Assembly: GCA_026399435.1 (NCBI GenBank)
Contig: JAPLQX010000019.1
Coordinates: forward strand, 1-64,000
Direction of reading: 5' to 3'
DNA length: 64,000 nt
Origin: Rhodocyclales bacterium
GTDB taxonomy: Bacteria; Pseudomonadota; Gammaproteobacteria; Burkholderiales; Rhodocyclaceae
Shown here: in pieces, positions 53,819-60,944 of the stretch
Layout: every line of letters begins with the position of its first letter
Numbering within the stretch: the stretch's first letter is position 1
The notes under the pieces: generated by a model
Seen by the model: the letters and a program-made list of their open reading frames with translations, nothing else
Told to the model about the DNA's origin: nothing
Databases searched by the model: none
Program-made: the position numbers and the translations under genes

Positions 53819-54513
53819 CGAGGACCGAGTCGTTTGTCCTCGGCCTGCGCTCGGTCATGCCGCTGTTGCTGGGCGTAGCGCCGTTTGGCGTGATCTATGG
53901 CGTGGTGGCGCTGCAAAGCGGCATCCCGCCCCTGGTAGCGATGGCGATGTCATCGATCGTCTTTGCCGGCTCCGCCCAGTTTCTGCTGGCCCAACTGGTC
54001 GGCGCCGGCGCGCCGCTGTTGCTCACCGCGGGCGCGGTGGGGCTGGTGAATCTGCGCCATGCGCTCTACAGCGCCTCGGTCGCGCCCATGCTGGCGCATC
54101 TGCCGCGGCGCTGGAAAATCCTGCTGGCCTATCTGCTGACCGACGAGGCCTATGCGGCAGCGATCCCGCATCTGATTGCCGTCAAGCCGAATTCGTCGCA
54201 GTCCGCGCTGGCGCACTGGATTCTGTTCGGTTCCGGCTTCGGTCTGTGGGCGGGCTGGCAATTGGCGACGCTGGCGGGTGTACTGATCGGTACCCAGCTG
54301 CCCTCGAATCTCGGGCTGGATTTCGCGCTGCCGCTGACCTTCATCGCCATCGTCGTGCCGATGATCGCCAGTCGCGCGCTGTTGGCGGCGGCCGTGACGG
54401 CAGGTGCGGTGGCCGTTGCCCTGGCGGCGATGCCCTACAAGGTGGGGCTGTTCATTGCCGCGCTGGCTGGCCTGGTCGTCGGGGCCGCGTTGACGAGAAA
54501 GGCGAAGAAATGA
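53815..54513 (+). CDS. azlC: AzlC family branched-chain amino acid exporter subunit
   Basis: The 232-residue large subunit of the AzlCD (LIV-E) exporter. LRSVMPLLLGVAPFGVIYGV at the N-terminus and MSSIVFAGSAQFLLAQLVGA are signature segments, with NLRHALYSASVAPML after. It has about six to seven helices. It is overlapped by azlD at its 3' end by 4 nt and by the EamA gene at its 5' end. The substrate may be Leu/Ile/Val or analogues. Confidence 0.93.
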   Translation: MTRTESFVLGLRSVMPLLLGVAPFGVIYGVVALQSGIPPLVAMAMSSIVFAGSAQFLLAQLVGAGAPLLLTAGAVGLVNLRHALYSASVAPMLAHLPRRWKILLAYLLTDEAYAAAIPHLIAVKPNSSQSALAHWILFGSGFGLWAGWQLATLAGVLIGTQLPSNLGLDFALPLTFIAIVVPMIASRALLAAAVTAGAVAVALAAMPYKVGLFIAALAGLVVGAALTRKAKK

Positions 54514-54821
54514 ATCTCTGGTGGCTGATGCTGGTATGCGGCGTGATTACCTTCGGCATCCGCTATTCCTTCATCGCCGCGGAAGGACACTATCAGCCGC
54601 CGACGTGGTTTCGCCGGCTGCTGCCCTTCGTCCCCATCGCGGCACTGACGGCGCTCACGGCGCCGGAACTGCTGCTGGTGCAGGGCGAGATCATGTTCGA
54701 CGGCGGCAATCCGCGCTTGTGGGCCGGATTGGTGGCCATCATCGTCGCCGCCCTCTGGCGCAATACCTTGCTGACCATCGGCAGCGGGTTTCTGGCCCTG
54801 TTCGTCCTGCAGCGTATTTGA
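54510..54821 (+). CDS. azlD: AzlD family exporter small subunit
   Basis: The 103-residue, four-helix partner of AzlC opens MNLWWLMLVCGVITFGIRYS and has FRRLLPFVPIAALTALTAPE and ALWRNTLLTIGSGFLALF. The start overlaps the azlC stop. It converges on senA, with only 4 nt between the two stop codons. Confidence 0.93.
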   Translation: MNLWWLMLVCGVITFGIRYSFIAAEGHYQPPTWFRRLLPFVPIAALTALTAPELLLVQGEIMFDGGNPRLWAGLVAIIVAALWRNTLLTIGSGFLALFVLQRI

Positions 54822-54825
54822 GTAT

Positions 54826-56028
54826 TCAGTTCGCCTGACAGCTGCGGAAGCCGACGAATATGTCGTCGCGATGCGGCTCGTAGTAGTTGCGGTAGCGCGG
54901 GTGGCGCATGCGCTCGCGGGTCGCGAAGGAGCCGCCGCGCACGCTGCGGTGGGTGTGGAAAAACGGTGCGGCGTATTCGGCATAGGGGTCCGGGCTGAAG
55001 CCCGGATAGGGCGCGAACGGGCTGGCCGTCCACTCCCAGACCTGGTTTCCCCAGTCGAAATCGCCGGCATGGAGCGCGGCGAATTCCCATTCTGCTTCGC
55101 TCGGCAGGCGGCGGCCGGCCCAGCGACACCAGGCTTCGGCTTCATGTGCCGTCAAGTGAATCACGGCCTGCGCGGGCGCCAGATCGACCCAATCGGCGAA
55201 GCGCCGCTGCTGCCAGATGCCGTCCTGCCGGCGCCAATAGCGCGGCATGGTCTGGCCGCTGGCGGCGAGCCATGCCCGGCCGCTCTCCGACCACCATTGC
55301 GGTTGCCGGTAAGCGCCCGCCTCGACGAACGCGAGATAGTCCGAATTTCTCACCGGAGTCGCCGAAATCGCGAAGCCATCGATCCGCTGCGGATGCGACC
55401 ATTTCTCGTTGTCGAAGACGAAGCCCTTGCTCGCAGGCGGACTACCCATCAGGAATTCGCCGCCGGCCAGTACGATGTCGTCGGCGGGCGAGAGCTCGCT
55501 CAATCCATCCGCAGCCGGCCACGCCAGGGTCTGTCGGGTGTAGTGGAAGGCTTCGCCGTGCATGTCCTCATGGAACAGGGCAAGTCGATGGAAATAAAGG
55601 GCGCGGTCCGTTTCCGGCAACTGCTGCAAGGAATCCAGGGCCGAGGCTAGCATGTCCTGAAGGTAGCGCCGGGTGGCGCTCCAGTCCGGTAGGTCGAGTT
55701 GCCAGCGGCTGTCATGCGGCACGTGGCGCGAGTCGTACCATCGGTCGGAATCGGGCAGGCGCGAGGGACGGGGTGGCGCGGTTTCACCCCGGTAGCGCTG
55801 ACACCAATACTCGGTGAACCAGGCGACATGGCCGAGTTCCCACAAGGGAGGATTGATGATGGCAAGGCAGGGCAGGCGCAGCGGATCGGGTGAGCGGACG
55901 CCTTCGACGCGTGATCCGTGCGGCCAGGCCGCAAACTCGTCGAGAAGCCTGATCGTATAATCGCGCGCATCCTGCATCGCATGGGCGAGCAGGGTTTTGT
56001 CCGCGGTTCTCAAATCCGGCGTGTCCAT
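54826..56028 (-). CDS. senA: Selenoneine synthase SenA (EgtB-type, FGE-sulfatase fold)
   Basis: The 400-residue non-heme iron enzyme joins hercynine to a selenosugar. N-terminal DinB_2-type domain carries the 3-His iron site: H67 (LWELGHVAWF), H153 and H157 (LFHEDMHGEAF). The C-terminal FGE-sulfatase domain follows (VLAGGEFLMGS; RLPSEAEWEFAALH; VRGGSFATRERMRHPRYRNY). By itself it could be read as EgtB, but the flanking senB-, selD-like and egtD genes point to SenA. The start has GGAGGAG 6 nt upstream. Its first 8 bases overlap the divergent senB start. Confidence 0.9.
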   Translation of the reverse strand: MDTPDLRTADKTLLAHAMQDARDYTIRLLDEFAAWPHGSRVEGVRSPDPLRLPCLAIINPPLWELGHVAWFTEYWCQRYRGETAPPRPSRLPDSDRWYDSRHVPHDSRWQLDLPDWSATRRYLQDMLASALDSLQQLPETDRALYFHRLALFHEDMHGEAFHYTRQTLAWPAADGLSELSPADDIVLAGGEFLMGSPPASKGFVFDNEKWSHPQRIDGFAISATPVRNSDYLAFVEAGAYRQPQWWSESGRAWLAASGQTMPRYWRRQDGIWQQRRFADWVDLAPAQAVIHLTAHEAEAWCRWAGRRLPSEAEWEFAALHAGDFDWGNQVWEWTASPFAPYPGFSPDPYAEYAAPFFHTHRSVRGGSFATRERMRHPRYRNYYEPHRDDIFVGFRSCQAN

Positions 56029-56989
56029 CACAGCTCCTCCTTCCGTCGTCATTATCAGCCCGGCGCTCGCCAGTGCCAATAACGGCAACTGGCATACCGC
56101 AAGACGCTGGGCGCGATGCCTCGCGGCCAAGTCACGGGTGAGGATCGAGCGCGAGTGGAGCGGGGCCGACGACGACATGATGATCGCCCTCCATGCGCGG
56201 CGGTCGGCAGCGTCGATCGCGAGCTTCGCTACACGCTATCCGCAGCGCCCGGTGGCGGTGGTCCTGACCGGGACCGATGTTTACCGCGACATTCGGGTCG
56301 ATGAGCAGGCGCAGCGCTCCTTGAGGCTGGCCACGCGATTGATCCTGCTGCAGGAAGAGGGATGGCGTGAACTGTCGGCGGCGGATGCCGCCAAGGCCAT
56401 GGTGATCTACCAGTCGGCGCAGCCGTTGAAACCCGGTCGGCGCAGCCGACGCTGGTTCGATCTGGCACTGGTGGGGCATCAGCGGCCCGAGAAGGATCCT
56501 CTCACCGCCGTGCAAGCGCTGCTGCGACTGCCGCCGGAACTTCCGGTGCGCCTGTTTCACGTCGGTTCTGCGCTCGATGCCGGGCTTGCCGCCAAGGTCG
56601 CCGCGCTGGGGGCCCAGGACAGCCGTTATCACTGGCTCGGAGCCCTGTCGCAGGCCGCGACGCGCCAGCGCATCAAGCGTTGCCACCTGCTGCTGCTGCC
56701 CTCACTGATGGAGGGCGGTGCCAATGTGCTGATCGAGGCCGTTACCAGTGGCGTGCCGGTGCTGGGCAGCGACATTCCCGGCAACCGGGGCATGCTCGGT
56801 GCCGACTATCCCGGATGGTTTCCGGTCGGTGATGCAGGGCGCCTGGCGGAACTGGTCCGAGCGGCGATGCGTGATCCCGACTATTACGCGACGCTGTCCC
56901 GGCGCTGCGCCGAGCGGGTATCCTTGTTCACCCCGGCGCACGAATGCGCCGCCGTTTGCAGTCTTCTTGAAATGACAAGGCAATTATAA
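56021..56989 (+). CDS. senB: Selenosugar synthase SenB (TIGR04348-type glycosyltransferase)
   Basis: The 322-residue GT-B-like protein. The N-terminal VVIISPALASANNGNWHTAR is diagnostic of the TIGR04348 family, and the C-terminal nucleotide-sugar region is LLLPSLMEGGANVLIEAVTS with SDIPGNRGMLGADYPGWFPV. In characterised clusters SenB uses selenophosphate and a UDP-sugar to make a Se-glycoside. I chose GTG 56021 because homology begins about 8 residues later; TTG 55997 is possible. There is no strong ribosome site. senC follows 2 nt after the stop. Confidence 0.9.
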   Translation: MSITAPPSVVIISPALASANNGNWHTARRWARCLAAKSRVRIEREWSGADDDMMIALHARRSAASIASFATRYPQRPVAVVLTGTDVYRDIRVDEQAQRSLRLATRLILLQEEGWRELSAADAAKAMVIYQSAQPLKPGRRSRRWFDLALVGHQRPEKDPLTAVQALLRLPPELPVRLFHVGSALDAGLAAKVAALGAQDSRYHWLGALSQAATRQRIKRCHLLLLPSLMEGGANVLIEAVTSGVPVLGSDIPGNRGMLGADYPGWFPVGDAGRLAELVRAAMRDPDYYATLSRRCAERVSLFTPAHECAAVCSLLEMTRQL

Positions 56990-56991
56990 AA

Positions 56992-58056
56992 ATGAATTCC
57001 CCCAAGCTTCCCGCTTCCCCGATTCGGCTAACCAGCTTCAGTCACGGCGGCGGCTGCGGCTGCAAGGTCGCTCCCGGCGTACTGTCCGAGATTCTGCGCG
57101 GTGCGCGCGGCTGGCCGGTGCCGAAAGAACTGATAGTCGGCATCGAAACTGCCGATGACGCGGCCGTGTACCGCCTCAACGACGAGCAGGCCCTGATCGC
57201 CACCACCGATTTCTTCATGCCCATCGTCGATGATCCCTACGATTTCGGCCGGATTGCCGCCACCAATGCAATCAGCGACGTGTATGCCATGGGCGGTACG
57301 CCGATCATGGCGCTGGCCCTTGTCGGTATGCCGATCGACAAACTGCCGCTGGAGGTCATCGGGAAAATTCTTGAGGGCGGTGAGAGTGTTTGCGCCGCCG
57401 CCGGCATTCCGATAGCCGGCGGCCACACCATCGATTCCGTGGAGCCGATTTATGGCCTGGTGGTGATGGGATTGGTACACCCCGATCGGGTAAAGACCAA
57501 CGCCGGTGCGCGGTCCGGCGACGTGCTGATCCTCGGCAAGCCACTCGGCGTCGGGGTGCTGTCGGCAGCCTTGAAGAAAGGCGCGCTGGACGCGGCCGGC
57601 TATGACGCCATGATTGCCAGCACGACCAAGCTGAATACCCCGGGCAGGCGCCTCGCGCATTTTGGCGGCGTGCACGCTCTGACCGACGTCACGGGCTTCG
57701 GCCTCCTGGGCCATCTGCTGGAGGTGTGTCGCGGCGCAAAGCTGTCGGCATTTCTCGACATGGGCAGGATCCCCCTGCTGGCCGAGGTCGAGCAACTGGC
57801 GACGGCAGGCTACATAACCGGAGCCTCGGCACGCAACTGGATGGCCTATGGCGAGGATGTCGCGCTGGACGCGGCGATCACGCCCATGCAGCGCGCCCTG
57901 CTGACCGATCCGCAAACCAGTGGCGGCCTGCTGGTCGCCTGCCAGCCTGCGGCCATCGATGAGGTGCTGGAGGTGTTTCGCGCCGAAGGCTTCGCGGAAG
58001 CAGCCGTGATCGGACGTCTGGAGGACGGTCCGGCCCAGGTGAACGTAGGCGCCTGA
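56992..58056 (+). CDS. senC: Selenide, water dikinase SelD / SenC
   Basis: The 354-residue enzyme makes selenophosphate from selenide and ATP. Active site HGGGCGCKVAP (C22, C24, K25); both are ordinary Cys codons, with no in-frame TGA. Other SelD blocks: DFFMPIVDDPYDFGRIAATN, SDVYAMGGTPIMALALVGMP, GGHTIDSVEPIYGLVVMG and LTDPQTSGGLLVAC. It is directly behind senB, so its product is likely channelled to the selenosugar. No selA, selB or mnmH lies in the window, so a selenoprotein role cannot be judged here. Confidence 0.93.
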   Translation: MNSPKLPASPIRLTSFSHGGGCGCKVAPGVLSEILRGARGWPVPKELIVGIETADDAAVYRLNDEQALIATTDFFMPIVDDPYDFGRIAATNAISDVYAMGGTPIMALALVGMPIDKLPLEVIGKILEGGESVCAAAGIPIAGGHTIDSVEPIYGLVVMGLVHPDRVKTNAGARSGDVLILGKPLGVGVLSAALKKGALDAAGYDAMIASTTKLNTPGRRLAHFGGVHALTDVTGFGLLGHLLEVCRGAKLSAFLDMGRIPLLAEVEQLATAGYITGASARNWMAYGEDVALDAAITPMQRALLTDPQTSGGLLVACQPAAIDEVLEVFRAEGFAEAAVIGRLEDGPAQVNVGA

Positions 58057-58061
58057 AAACG

Positions 58062-59051
58062 CTATTCCGCCCGGCGGGCGAAGAACAGGGCAAACCAGCC
58101 GCGGGGGTCGGTCCACATCCGGATATCGGCAAATCCAGTCGAGGCCAGCAGGGCGGTGAAGCCTTCGGGCGAATACTTGTACGAGTTCTCGGTGTGAATC
58201 CGATCGCCGGTGGCGAACTGCCTCAGGCTGCGGCCTGCGGCATCCGGCCAGCTTGCCGTGAGCGCGCGACGGGCCTCCAGATACATTTCGATGCGGGCAT
58301 TCGTGGCGTTGTAAAAAGCCACGTGCTGCCAGTCGCGGATATCGAAGTCGGCGTCGAGCCGGGCATTCACATGTCGCAGCAGGTTGCGGTTGAAGGCCGC
58401 GGTGACGCCCAGGGCGTCGTCGTAGGCCGCGTCGAGCAGGGCGCGGTCCTTGATCAGATCGACGCCGATCAGCAGGCCGCCCGAAGCATCCAGCCGGTCG
58501 GCCAGACCTCGCAGAAACCTGCGGGCGTCGGGCGGGCTGAAGTTTCCGATGCTGGAGCCGGGATAGAAAAACACCCGTCGTTCCAGCGGAATGTCGTCGG
58601 GCAGTTCGAGTTCGTGCGTGAAGTCGAGACCGACGCCGATCATCTCGATCGCCGGCAGCTCGCGTTTCAGCTGCTGCAATGATTCGCGCATGAAATCGAC
58701 CGAAATATCGACCGCGACGTAGCGGGCGGGAAGAACTCCCGCATGAAAAAGCCTGCCGGCCTTGCCGCAGTTGCCGCAGCCGAGATCGATGAGCGTGAAG
58801 CCATGACCCAGCGCCTGCCGGATCGCCGGCAGATGCTCGCTGAAGATGGCTGCCTCGGTCCGGGTCGGGTAGTACTCGGGCAGCTCGGTAATCGCTTCGA
58901 ACAGGCGTGAGCCGAGCCTGTCGTAGAAGAACTTCGGCGCGATCGAGGCCTGTGTTTGCAGCAATCCGGCGGCAAGCTCCGCGCGCAGCCTGGCGTTTTG
59001 CTGCGGCGAATCCCAGTCGAGAATCTGATGAAGCCTGACCTCGGACGACAT
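58062..59051 (-). CDS. egtD: L-histidine N-alpha-methyltransferase EgtD
   Basis: The 329-residue SAM enzyme trimethylates histidine to hercynine. SAM motif LIDLGCGNCGKAGRLF, then YVAVDISVDFMRESLQQLKR, FFYPGSSIGNFSPPDARRFL and the C-terminal HTENSYKYSPEGF. These are hallmarks of EgtD (DUF2260). It supplies the SenA acceptor. It converges on senC (5 nt apart) and starts 1 nt after the upstream methylase gene's stop, so it is translationally coupled to that operon, not to senA. Confidence 0.95.
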   Translation of the reverse strand: MSSEVRLHQILDWDSPQQNARLRAELAAGLLQTQASIAPKFFYDRLGSRLFEAITELPEYYPTRTEAAIFSEHLPAIRQALGHGFTLIDLGCGNCGKAGRLFHAGVLPARYVAVDISVDFMRESLQQLKRELPAIEMIGVGLDFTHELELPDDIPLERRVFFYPGSSIGNFSPPDARRFLRGLADRLDASGGLLIGVDLIKDRALLDAAYDDALGVTAAFNRNLLRHVNARLDADFDIRDWQHVAFYNATNARIEMYLEARRALTASWPDAAGRSLRQFATGDRIHTENSYKYSPEGFTALLASTGFADIRMWTDPRGWFALFFARRAE

Positions 59052-59052
59052 G

Positions 59053-59763
59053 TCAGTCGGCCAGCAGCAGAAAAACGGTAGGGCGCTTGTCCAGATCGGG
59101 CGCCGGGGTCGTTTTCCAGTCTGCGGTGCGGTGCGTGATGATCTGTTCAGTGGCCAACGTCAGGTCGGTCGCCAGGCAGAGGCGCGTTTTCGGTCGGCAG
59201 GCCTGTAGCAGTGCGCTGAACAATGCCCGGTTCCGGTAAGGCGTTTCGATGAATATCTGGGTTTGCTTGAGCCGGGCCGATTCGTTTTCCAGTTCGGCGA
59301 TGCGAAGGCTGCGTTCCGGTTCGCGTGCCGGCAGGTAGCCGTGGAAGGCGAAGCGCTGGCCATCGAGGCCGGAGGCCATCAGCGCCAGCAGCAAGGAGGA
59401 AGGGCCGACCAGCGGTTTGACGACGAGGCCCAGTTCGTGGGCGCGGCGTACCAGCAGGGCGCCGGGATCGGCCACGGCCGGGCAGCCGGCTTCGGACATC
59501 AGGCCGATATCGTGGCCCTCACGCAGCGGCGCGATCAGTCGCTCGATGTCGGCGGCCGTGGGCGACTCAGGCAACTGCTCGATTGCCAGTTCGCGCAAGG
59601 GCACGGGATGGCCGATGCGCTTGAGTTCGGCGCGCGCCGTCTTGGCGTTTTCGGCGACAAAGCGCGTCAATCGGCATGCCGCCTCGCGGGTAGCAGGCGG
59701 CAAATAGCTCTGCCAAGGGGTGTCGCCGAGGGCGACGGGCAACAGCCAAAGTGTGCCGGACAT
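59053..59763 (-). CDS. SAM-dependent methyltransferase, RsmI-like paralogue
   Basis: The 236-residue tetrapyrrole-methylase-fold protein opens MSGTLWLLPVALGDTPWQSY. Visible motifs: IGLMSEAGCPAVADPGALLV, VVKPLVGPSSLLLALMASGL and HGYLPAREPERS, with QIFIETPYRN. These match COG0313 (16S rRNA C1402 2'-O-methyltransferase RsmI), but the protein is about 40-50 residues shorter and the motifs are divergent, so it is a paralogue of uncertain target. It lies between maf and egtD on the same strand. Confidence 0.82.
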   Translation of the reverse strand: MSGTLWLLPVALGDTPWQSYLPPATREAACRLTRFVAENAKTARAELKRIGHPVPLRELAIEQLPESPTAADIERLIAPLREGHDIGLMSEAGCPAVADPGALLVRRAHELGLVVKPLVGPSSLLLALMASGLDGQRFAFHGYLPAREPERSLRIAELENESARLKQTQIFIETPYRNRALFSALLQACRPKTRLCLATDLTLATEQIITHRTADWKTTPAPDLDKRPTVFLLLAD

Positions 59764-59797
59764 CGGCTAGCGGAGTTTGCGTGTCATGGCAGGCCCG

Positions 59798-60379
59798 TCA
59801 TGGCAAATGCAGGCCTTCGGCGCGCAGCATGCCGCACAGGGCGATCAGCGGCAGGCCCACCAGCGCGTTGGGGTCGTCGCCGCGCAGGTAGGTGAGCAGG
59901 GAAATGCCCAAACCCTCGGATTTGGCGCTGCCGGCACAGTTGAGGGCGTCTTCCTTGTCGAGATAGGACTCGATTTCGGCATCGGAAAGGTCGCGAAAGC
60001 CGACATGCGTGTCAACGCAACTCAGTTGAACCCGGTTGGTGGCGCTGTTGAGCAGGCACAGGCCGGTATGGAAGACCACCTCTTTTCCACGCATCTGGCG
60101 CAACTGGACGATGGCATTCTCGCGCCTCTCCGGCTTGCCGAAGCGCTCGTTGCCGCTGGCGGCAACCTGGTCCGAACCGATAATCAGCGCGTCGGGATAG
60201 CGCCGGGCCACGGCGCGAGCCTTGGCCTCGGCGAGGCGCAGGGCCGTGGTAGCGGGTGCCTCGCCCGGCAGCGCCGACTCGTCGGCTTCCGGCGCGGCGG
60301 TTTCGAAGGGGATCTGCAGGCGGGCCAGAAGTTCGCGGCGGAAGGGCGAGGTCGAGGCAAGAACGACAAGGCGAGGCAT
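59798..60379 (-). CDS. maf: Maf-like nucleoside triphosphate pyrophosphatase (YceF type)
   Basis: The 193-residue housecleaning NTP pyrophosphatase opens [20 protein letters not shown], the Maf P-loop-like motif. Other segments: [20 protein letters not shown], and [20 protein letters not shown], with [16 protein letters not shown]. The YceF subgroup hydrolyses modified or m7G nucleotides. Its gene contains a GCGCCGACTC copy on the plus strand (60271-60280). It is divergent from yceD, the usual arrangement. Confidence 0.94.
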
Positions 60380-60389
60380 GTTTCAGACT

Positions 60390-60419
60390 TGAAAAGAGGG
60401 GGTTAGGCATGATAACATT
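60390..60419 (+). promoter_or_regulatory. Candidate promoter of yceD-rpmF-plsX-fab
   Basis: TTGAAA (60390-60395), 18 bp, TAACAT (60414-60419), in the maf-yceD divergent gap. The predicted transcript start is around 60426, which favours a yceD start downstream at GTG 60447 over the TTG at 60426. Confidence 0.45.
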
Positions 60420-60446
60420 CACCGTTTGTCGCGCGAGCGCCTGTCC

Positions 60447-60944
60447 GTGTCCGATTCGATTGCCGGAACAGTCATAGACTGTCTTGAGTTCGCGCGCAGT
60501 GGCGGTGTGCTGGAGCGTAACGTTGGCCTGGATGAATTGCCGCGTCTGGCGGAGTTGCTGACCACAACGGCGGGCTTCTTGTCGGTCCGGCTCGAAGGAT
60601 GGCGCGACGATCAGGGAAAGTCGTGGTTGCAACTGGATATAGCAGGCGCGCCGGTATTGTGTTGCCAGCGTTGCCTGGGCGGCGTGAAGTTTCCGCTGGC
60701 GATCAGGAGCCGGTTGCAACTGATAGCCCCCGGCGAGGATTGGCCGGACGACGACCTGGAGGATGACAGCGCAGATGCAATCACCGCCGAAACGGCGTTG
60801 ACCGTGCTGTCGCTGGTTGAAGATGAAGTGTTGCTGGCGCTGCCCATCGCGCCGCGGCATGAGCAGTGCGAATCGCCATTGGCGAGCGCAAGTGGACATG
60901 GGGCATCGCCGTTTGCGGCGCTGGCCGATTTGAAGAAGCATTGA
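60447..60944 (+). CDS. yceD: YceD family protein (23S rRNA accumulation, DUF177)
   Basis: The 165-residue protein of the DUF177 family begins [20 protein letters not shown] from GTG 60447; TTG 60426 gives seven more residues. The conserved CxxC is in [15 protein letters not shown], and the acidic stretch [11 protein letters not shown] and C-terminal [11 protein letters not shown] are typical. YceD affects 23S rRNA accumulation and is nearly always placed before rpmF, as here (16 nt). Confidence 0.9.

Follow-up and report, generated by a model that had tools for sequence, protein, structure and literature searches.

The subject of this study is a group of four adjacent genes at positions 54826..59051 of a 64,000-nucleotide (nt) stretch of DNA from a Rhodocyclales bacterium (positions 1 to 64,000 of contig JAPLQX010000019.1, assembly GCA_026399435.1; we call the whole stretch 'the window'). 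We propose, at a probability of about 0.92 and on the strength of sequence comparisons, that these genes make up a complete, dedicated pathway to selenoneine. A first-pass annotation, made from the letters of the window, had claimed all four; each is present at these coordinates, intact, and each predicted protein scores over its NCBIfam cut-off:

54826..56028, minus strand: senA, selenoneine synthase, 400 amino acids, ATG at 56028 (NF041186; PDB 8k5i; SenA clade)
56021..56989, plus strand: senB, Se-glycosyltransferase (selenosugar synthase), GTG 56021 start preferred (TIGR04348; PDB 8fbx)
56992..58056, plus strand: selD/senC, selenophosphate synthetase with an intact GCGCK motif (TIGR00476; PDB 3u0o)
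58062..59051, minus strand: egtD, histidine N-alpha-methyltransferase, which makes hercynine (TIGR03438; PDB 4pim)

In the profile searches SenA obtained 520.8 bits with NF041186 (cut-off 420), SelD 434.1 bits with TIGR00476 (cut-off 125) and EgtD 366.3 bits with TIGR03438 (cut-off 290.9); the search of SenB against TIGR04348, which had been put forward as a check, gave 397.7 bits (cut-off 300). The top solved relatives point the same way: SenA 8k5i (E 3e-102), SenB 8fbx (E 5e-78), the selenide, water dikinase 3u0o (E 1.5e-96) and EgtD 4pim (E 3e-63, with residues 21-325 of 329 aligned). Judged on these sequence matches, chance is no issue for the four family assignments. The genes use both strands and are indeed packed without gaps: 4 nt separate azlD from senA, 2 nt senB from selD, 5 nt selD from egtD, and 1 nt egtD from an RsmI-like gene upstream of it; with GTG 56021 as the senB start, the senA and senB frames share 8 nt.

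We envisage the following series of reactions: EgtD would trimethylate histidine to hercynine, SelD would form selenophosphate from selenide and adenosine triphosphate (ATP), SenB would place selenium onto the sugar of a uridine diphosphate (UDP)-sugar to give a selenosugar, and SenA, a 3-His iron enzyme, would couple that selenosugar to hercynine, yielding a selenoxide that would fall apart and be reduced to selenoneine. SenA uses O2, as does EgtB, its counterpart in ergothioneine synthesis. The Sen chemistry is described for the Variovorax paradoxus enzymes in parts of PMC10702425 and PMC10891094, and we would expect it here because the window's proteins belong to the same families; selenoneine has been detected in sen-bearing microbes (PMC9814287).

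SenA and EgtB compared

The same genes could instead serve an ergothioneine pathway, in which an EgtB-like enzyme joins gamma-Glu-Cys or Cys to hercynine, and senB and selD are unrelated neighbours. EgtD serves both pathways, an FGE-sulfatase domain is found in the window's SenA, and the 3-His site is common to SenA and EgtB. The iron-ligand set H67, H153 and H157 (numbered from ATG 56028) was correctly named in the first-pass annotation: histidine occupies these positions in 117, 116 and 116 of the 117 other aligned SenA rows (a set that contains the window's own locus, L015, and duplicates of some places), and in 19 (with 3 gaps), 22 and 22 of 22 EgtB rows. Since both classes have these ligands, they are not by themselves diagnostic of SenA.

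Against the EgtB model TIGR03440 the window's SenA obtained 233.2 bits, under the cut-off of 360, while standing far over its SenA cut-off. In a tree of 80 rows, selected from 139 SenA/EgtB rows plus the window, the 22 EgtB rows stand apart from all SenA rows, including the window, with a Shimodaira-Hasegawa-like approximate likelihood ratio (SH-aLRT) support of 100; an identical split, supported 100/100 and present in 100% of 200 bootstrap trees, was obtained in a 59-row tree that includes the solved SenA, 8k5i, which falls together with the window. A grouping with the sulfur-using EgtB enzymes had been named as the outcome that would count against selenoneine; the window is on the SenA side. 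Furthermore, there are 14 columns at which 35 SenA rows and 22 EgtB rows are each fixed, to 90% or more, for a different residue; at these the window shows the SenA residue 14 times and the EgtB residue never (8k5i has the SenA residue in 13 of the 14). On family score, tree and class-specific residues, ergothioneine from EgtB was ruled out as the product of this locus.

Nor do senB and selD behave as unrelated neighbours. We located genes by tblastn with the window's proteins in 80 named loci, which are the best 80 of at least 590 confirmed stretches, a sample that hence favours close relatives and in which some loci are truncated at contig ends. SenB is present in 69 of them, and in 68 it is divergent from SenA within 300 nt; SelD follows SenB on the same strand within 300 nt in 56. 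SenB also occurs in 37 of 37 genomes with SenA. Taken together, these results leave the ergothioneine reading very improbable, and a dedicated selenoneine pathway remains our preferred explanation.

Gene content of the window genome and its relatives

The window genome (G000) comprises 2.88 Mb in 57 contigs and is 80.9% complete. From its nearest named relatives we infer that it is Sulfuritalea-like; the window is syntenic with named contigs, for example L027 (Sulfuritalea sp.) and L028. We tallied by hand the family matches over cut-off in 61 genomes, 31 of which belong to the genus. SenA was found in 37, EgtB in 9 (4 of them also with SenA), EgtD in 43 and SenB in 41. The 43 EgtD genomes consist of 36 with SenA, 5 with EgtB only and 2 with SenA in pieces (G021 and G033), and EgtD is absent from all 17 genomes that have neither SenA nor EgtB: counting the two with SenA pieces, EgtD tracks SenA or EgtB throughout, with one exception (G029). 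The 41 SenB genomes are all 37 with SenA, G021 and G033, plus G017 and G050, in which neither EgtD nor a SenA over cut-off turned up. The 81%-complete window genome yielded no EgtB over cut-off, and to that extent a separate EgtB route to ergothioneine, which could have argued against selenoneine, did not appear. The earlier proposal that this organism makes selenoneine gains support from the SenA tree, from the lack of an EgtB match and from the co-occurrence of EgtD, and production of selenoneine is predicted.

Another reading is a mixed output: SenA would make selenoneine if selenium is present, and ergothioneine would arise either through an EgtB encoded in the missing 19% of the genome or through an oxygen-independent synthase of the rhodanese type. 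The incompleteness of the genome speaks for it, as does G015, of the same genus, which has both SenA and EgtB; in addition, the window genome holds 15 rhodanese matches, one of them an open reading frame (ORF) with three domains, and EanB is a multi-rhodanese protein. Yet G015 is the only one of the 31 genus genomes with an EgtB over cut-off. The three-domain rhodanese, inspected by eye, has a signal-peptide-like start and lies beside a membrane protein, and 0 of its 20 solved matches are labelled ergothioneine synthase. As for the window's EgtD, it falls in a clade of copies from selD sites, apart from the egtB-linked copies of G015 and G003. We regard a mixed output as very improbable next to a pathway dedicated to selenoneine. 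Among the rhodanese matches there was no good candidate for an oxygen-independent ergothioneine synthase, no EanB model having been applied.

SenB and its conserved residues

Six residues of SenB (G19, N20, R155, K158, E231 and E239) are identical in 117 of 117 aligned rows, that is, the window and 116 others, some of them places fetched twice and the window's own locus included. Sites were mapped by alignment to V. paradoxus SenB, for which parts of PMC10891094 and PMC10702425 assign catalytic or UDP-related roles to K158, E231, E239, N20 and R155.

A further alternative is that the selenosugar is the true end product, or an intermediate for another path, with SenA and EgtD decayed or repurposed. 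Such an arrangement has some precedent in the 2 of 61 genomes that have SenB with neither SenA over cut-off nor EgtD (G017 and G050). In the window, however, neither SenA nor EgtD is truncated; SenA keeps both its iron ligands and its class-specific residues, and EgtD aligns with its solved homologue over nearly all of its length. We consider this explanation extremely improbable.

In G017, which is 99% complete and has no SenA or EgtD match, SenB lies at 8070-9089 of L147 (C16:3000-17000; 421 bits), near selA, selB and tRNA-Sec and, by eye, a formate-dehydrogenase-like ORF; it is followed by a small S-adenosylmethionine methyltransferase gene, TehB-like though under that model's cut-off. This SenB possibly serves another selenosugar product or detoxification. 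In G050, SenB lies at 4630-5631 of L148 (C69; 444 bits).

Points against a dedicated selenoneine pathway

Several observations weigh against our proposal. Because the genome is 81% complete, the failure to find EgtB, SelA and SelB counts as weak evidence. In G029, SenA is present while EgtD has no match anywhere, and selD is split between two contigs. Linkage is not strict: among ten named genomes, chosen for a SenA-class locus without senB or selD close by, seven have a SenB over cut-off, one (L055) has it as two sub-cut-off pieces, and two (L072 and L092) show no match over cut-off. The window's SenB has H at the place of R22, and N for H in the EGGAHV motif; these deviations are softened by the alignment, where 94 of 117 rows have N, the commonest residue, at the latter site and just 5 of 117 have R22. 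According to an excerpt of PMC11448449, selenoneine was characterised in vitro but was not demonstrated in vivo. Finally, SenA may, as far as its sequence tells, use sulfur in vivo.

The selD gene and its site

The first-pass annotation had described the SelD-type kinase as keeping its GGCGCK motif; the motif is intact, and GCGCK is present in 85 of 85 single-domain SelD rows. The window's copy is the sole SelD over cut-off in its genome. The genus sites that we fetched have selD flanked by EamA (mostly with AzlC) on one side and by the pair RsmI-like - Maf on the other, with any sen genes inside that order. In 17 of the 31 genus genomes, senA/senB and egtD surround selD (the site is split over two contigs in G013 and G020, about 3 kb separate selD from egtD in G013, and senA is cut by a contig end in G021). 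Five have senA/senB without egtD at the selD site (G001, G003, G015, G016 and G028), to which G029, with its divided selD, may be added. Six have selD with no sen genes at the site and a second sen locus elsewhere (G006, G008, G009, G019, G026 and G030; for G009, G019 and G030 this state comes from genome-scan coordinates). In the remaining two (G017 and G022), selD stands alone and there is no SenA.

Given that the same site holds selD without sen genes in relatives, the window's gene is best read from these comparisons as the resident housekeeping selD and not as a paralogue that arrived together with sen, and a dedicated senC paralogue was ruled out. The senC of the first-pass annotation is thus the genus's resident selD. 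In a SelD tree, sen-less and sen-bearing copies are interleaved: the 5 sen-less rows need 4 changes, a number as low in 53 of 500 shuffles. The starred branches force only 1 change, and agreement with the resident-gene reading is weak. The sen genes may have been gained around selD or lost from the site.

The window genome also encodes MnmH, which makes 2-selenouridine in tRNA (TIGR03167; C6:4835-5755, 358.7 bits, cut-off 219.75). Because the resident selD is, on the evidence of this genome, the cell's one copy, a single SelD probably supplies both selenoneine synthesis and MnmH. The search for selA, selB and mnmH elsewhere, which had been suggested, succeeded for mnmH; SelA, SelB and tRNA-Sec gave nothing over cut-off in this 81%-complete genome, with 96 of 425 first-look tRNA candidates scored, nor in the relatives G003, G010 and G015. 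The three are mostly adjacent in relatives, so one missing contig could hide them all.

egtD and its surroundings

The single EgtD match in the window genome is the window's own. Upstream of it lies

59053..59763, minus strand: RsmI-like methyltransferase gene (TIGR00096 below cut-off; synteny)

whose product obtained 82.7 bits with TIGR00096 (cut-off 167.9) and which is a conserved flank, outside the pathway. The 1 nt gap makes it probable that egtD and this gene are co-transcribed. That all steps share one locus, as first proposed, holds for physical linkage; by strand and spacing, however, egtD groups with the RsmI-like and maf genes.

Adjacency of egtD is recurrent yet a minority state in the 80 named loci, as the counts there indicate: EgtD and SelD, on opposite strands, are at most 300 nt apart in 10 (L053, L100, L101 and 7 loci from close relatives of the window), EgtD is otherwise within 2 kb of SenA in 7, and it is anywhere in the locus in 29; EgtB is present in 14. 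Overall, the EgtD tree does not sort EgtD by partner. At four loci (L045, L050, L069 and L072), a SenA-like gene lies beside egtD with no senB in the fetched flanks; of the genomes tested among these, those of L045 and L069 have SenB elsewhere and that of L072 showed none over cut-off. At L130 (G003 C36:11628-13359), in a genome that bears SenA, egtD is followed by an egtB-like frame with TGA and TAG, a possible instance of loss of the ergothioneine branch.

Transcription layout and candidate signals

Strands and spacing suggest three transcription units: senA; senB-selD; and egtD with the RsmI-like gene, itself behind maf. Four further features bear on how the first two might be expressed:

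56021..56028, no strand: senA/senB start-codon overlap, 8 nt head to head (genus alignment)
55956..55961, plus strand: TATAAT in senA codons D23-Y24-T25, possible senB -10 box (low synonymous variation)
56051..56079, minus strand: TTGGCA-17-GATAAT inside senB, possible senA promoter (consensus scan)
56903..56926: senB codons 295-302, the least variable of that gene at synonymous sites, 66-89 nt ahead of the selD start; a possible internal signal for selD

For senB we prefer GTG 56021 over TTG 55997 as the start. Of 22 distinct genus sequences besides the window, 20 have the senA ATG at this position; 15 have a senB GTG or ATG where the window does, and the remaining 7 have an in-frame ATG two codons downstream. 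It is a reasonable inference that the senA and senB promoters are buried in each other's genes. The TATAAT lies within the part of senA that varies least at synonymous sites (0.32 of expectation against a median of 0.73; 262 windows, 22 sequences, in which other stretches reach 0.35-0.39); it was not called in the promoter consensus scan, and no -35 box was recognised. The sole site in that scan is the one on the minus strand at 56079..56051; with 1 found versus 0.7 expected, it is not by itself above chance. It overlaps senB codons 12-19, where synonymous variation is 0.31, the third lowest of 227 windows (23 sequences). Low-variation windows also occur at senA residues 91-103, 358-368 and 379-388, where they overlap no start, and so the embedded promoters are offered as candidates. 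No promoter boxes were recognised in senB codons 295-302, no Rfam family reached its gathering score in 54000..60500, and we make no claim for terminators, of which 3 were found versus 2.5 expected.

Relation to known systems

Kayrouz et al. 2022 is said to be the founding paper of the senABC cluster. The closest known system is the senABC selenoneine cluster of V. paradoxus DSM 30034 (PMC9814287, and parts of PMC10702425 and PMC10891094): SenA, SenB and SelD/SenC are of the same equivalog families, and the top solved matches of the window's SenA and SenB are named SenA and SenB. The window differs in that egtD is directly adjacent, selD is resident and the sole copy found, and the starts of senA and senB overlap. 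The word 'egtD' is absent from the main texts of PMC10702425, PMC10891094 and PMC11929427, the founding paper's coverage of egtD linkage and fusion clusters being a separate matter; in PMC10903977, the one paper retrieved by our search in which selenoneine, egtD and SenA occur together, EgtD is discussed for ergothioneine. With the ergothioneine EgtB/EgtD pair the window has in common the EgtD step and a 3-His oxygenase of the FGE-sulfatase kind; it differs in having SenA for EgtB, and SenB plus SelD for the sulfur donor route.

The locus is a fairly ordinary one, belonging to a published pathway whose biochemistry is already known. The refinements are the resident selD, the overlapping senA/senB starts, and the placement of egtD in what we infer to be a separate transcription unit. 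The locus extends a dedicated selenium-metabolite pathway to a lineage that is Sulfuritalea-like and has the hercynine step adjacent. It also offers a carrier whose selenoneine and tRNA selenouridine probably depend on one SelD, with no selenocysteine machinery detected in the 81%-complete genome. With the same selD site found with or without sen genes and a second sen type in relatives, gain, loss and selenium allocation can be tested directly.

A second type of sen locus in the genus

We think it an even bet that the selenoneine trait exists in the genus in two alternative forms. In type I, senA/senB and usually egtD would flank the resident single-domain selD, one SelD would serve both tRNA selenation and selenoneine, and divergent promoters would lie in overlapping head-to-head genes; type II would reside elsewhere and comprise egtD, divergent SenA/SenB and an oxidoreductase-SelD fusion that belongs to it. 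If true, the alternation would be a natural experiment on how pathways share selenium flux or are insulated from one another. None of the 31 genus genomes has both types.

The second type is exemplified by L135 (G006), which has egtD, senA (476 bits), senB (438 bits) and a gene for a 757-amino-acid oxidoreductase-SelD fusion, in which a pyridine-nucleotide oxidoreductase domain (TIGR03169, 518 bits) is joined to a SelD domain (TIGR00476, 298 bits); with the model TIGR04369, 'fusion_not_SelD', it obtained 472, under the cut-off of 700. The same set is found in G008, G019, G026, G030 and G039, the last belonging to another family, and in G009 up to a contig end (loci L136, L138, L145, L146, L144 and L137). 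The fusion's SelD domain starts CGGCGAK, matching the CxxC that part of PMC2398784 reports in all Ndh-SelD fusions; a fusion of this kind is the SelD of the second type, whereas the window's selD is single-domain, and no such fusion is shown in the window genome. In the 80-row tree, second-type SenA falls with Comamonadaceae rows, apart from the window's type, and in the 59-row tree the rows nearest 8k5i are L096 (Comamonadaceae), three second-type SenA and L104. An unlinked oxidoreductase-SelD fusion also occurs in some type I relatives, one of which (L158) was confirmed.

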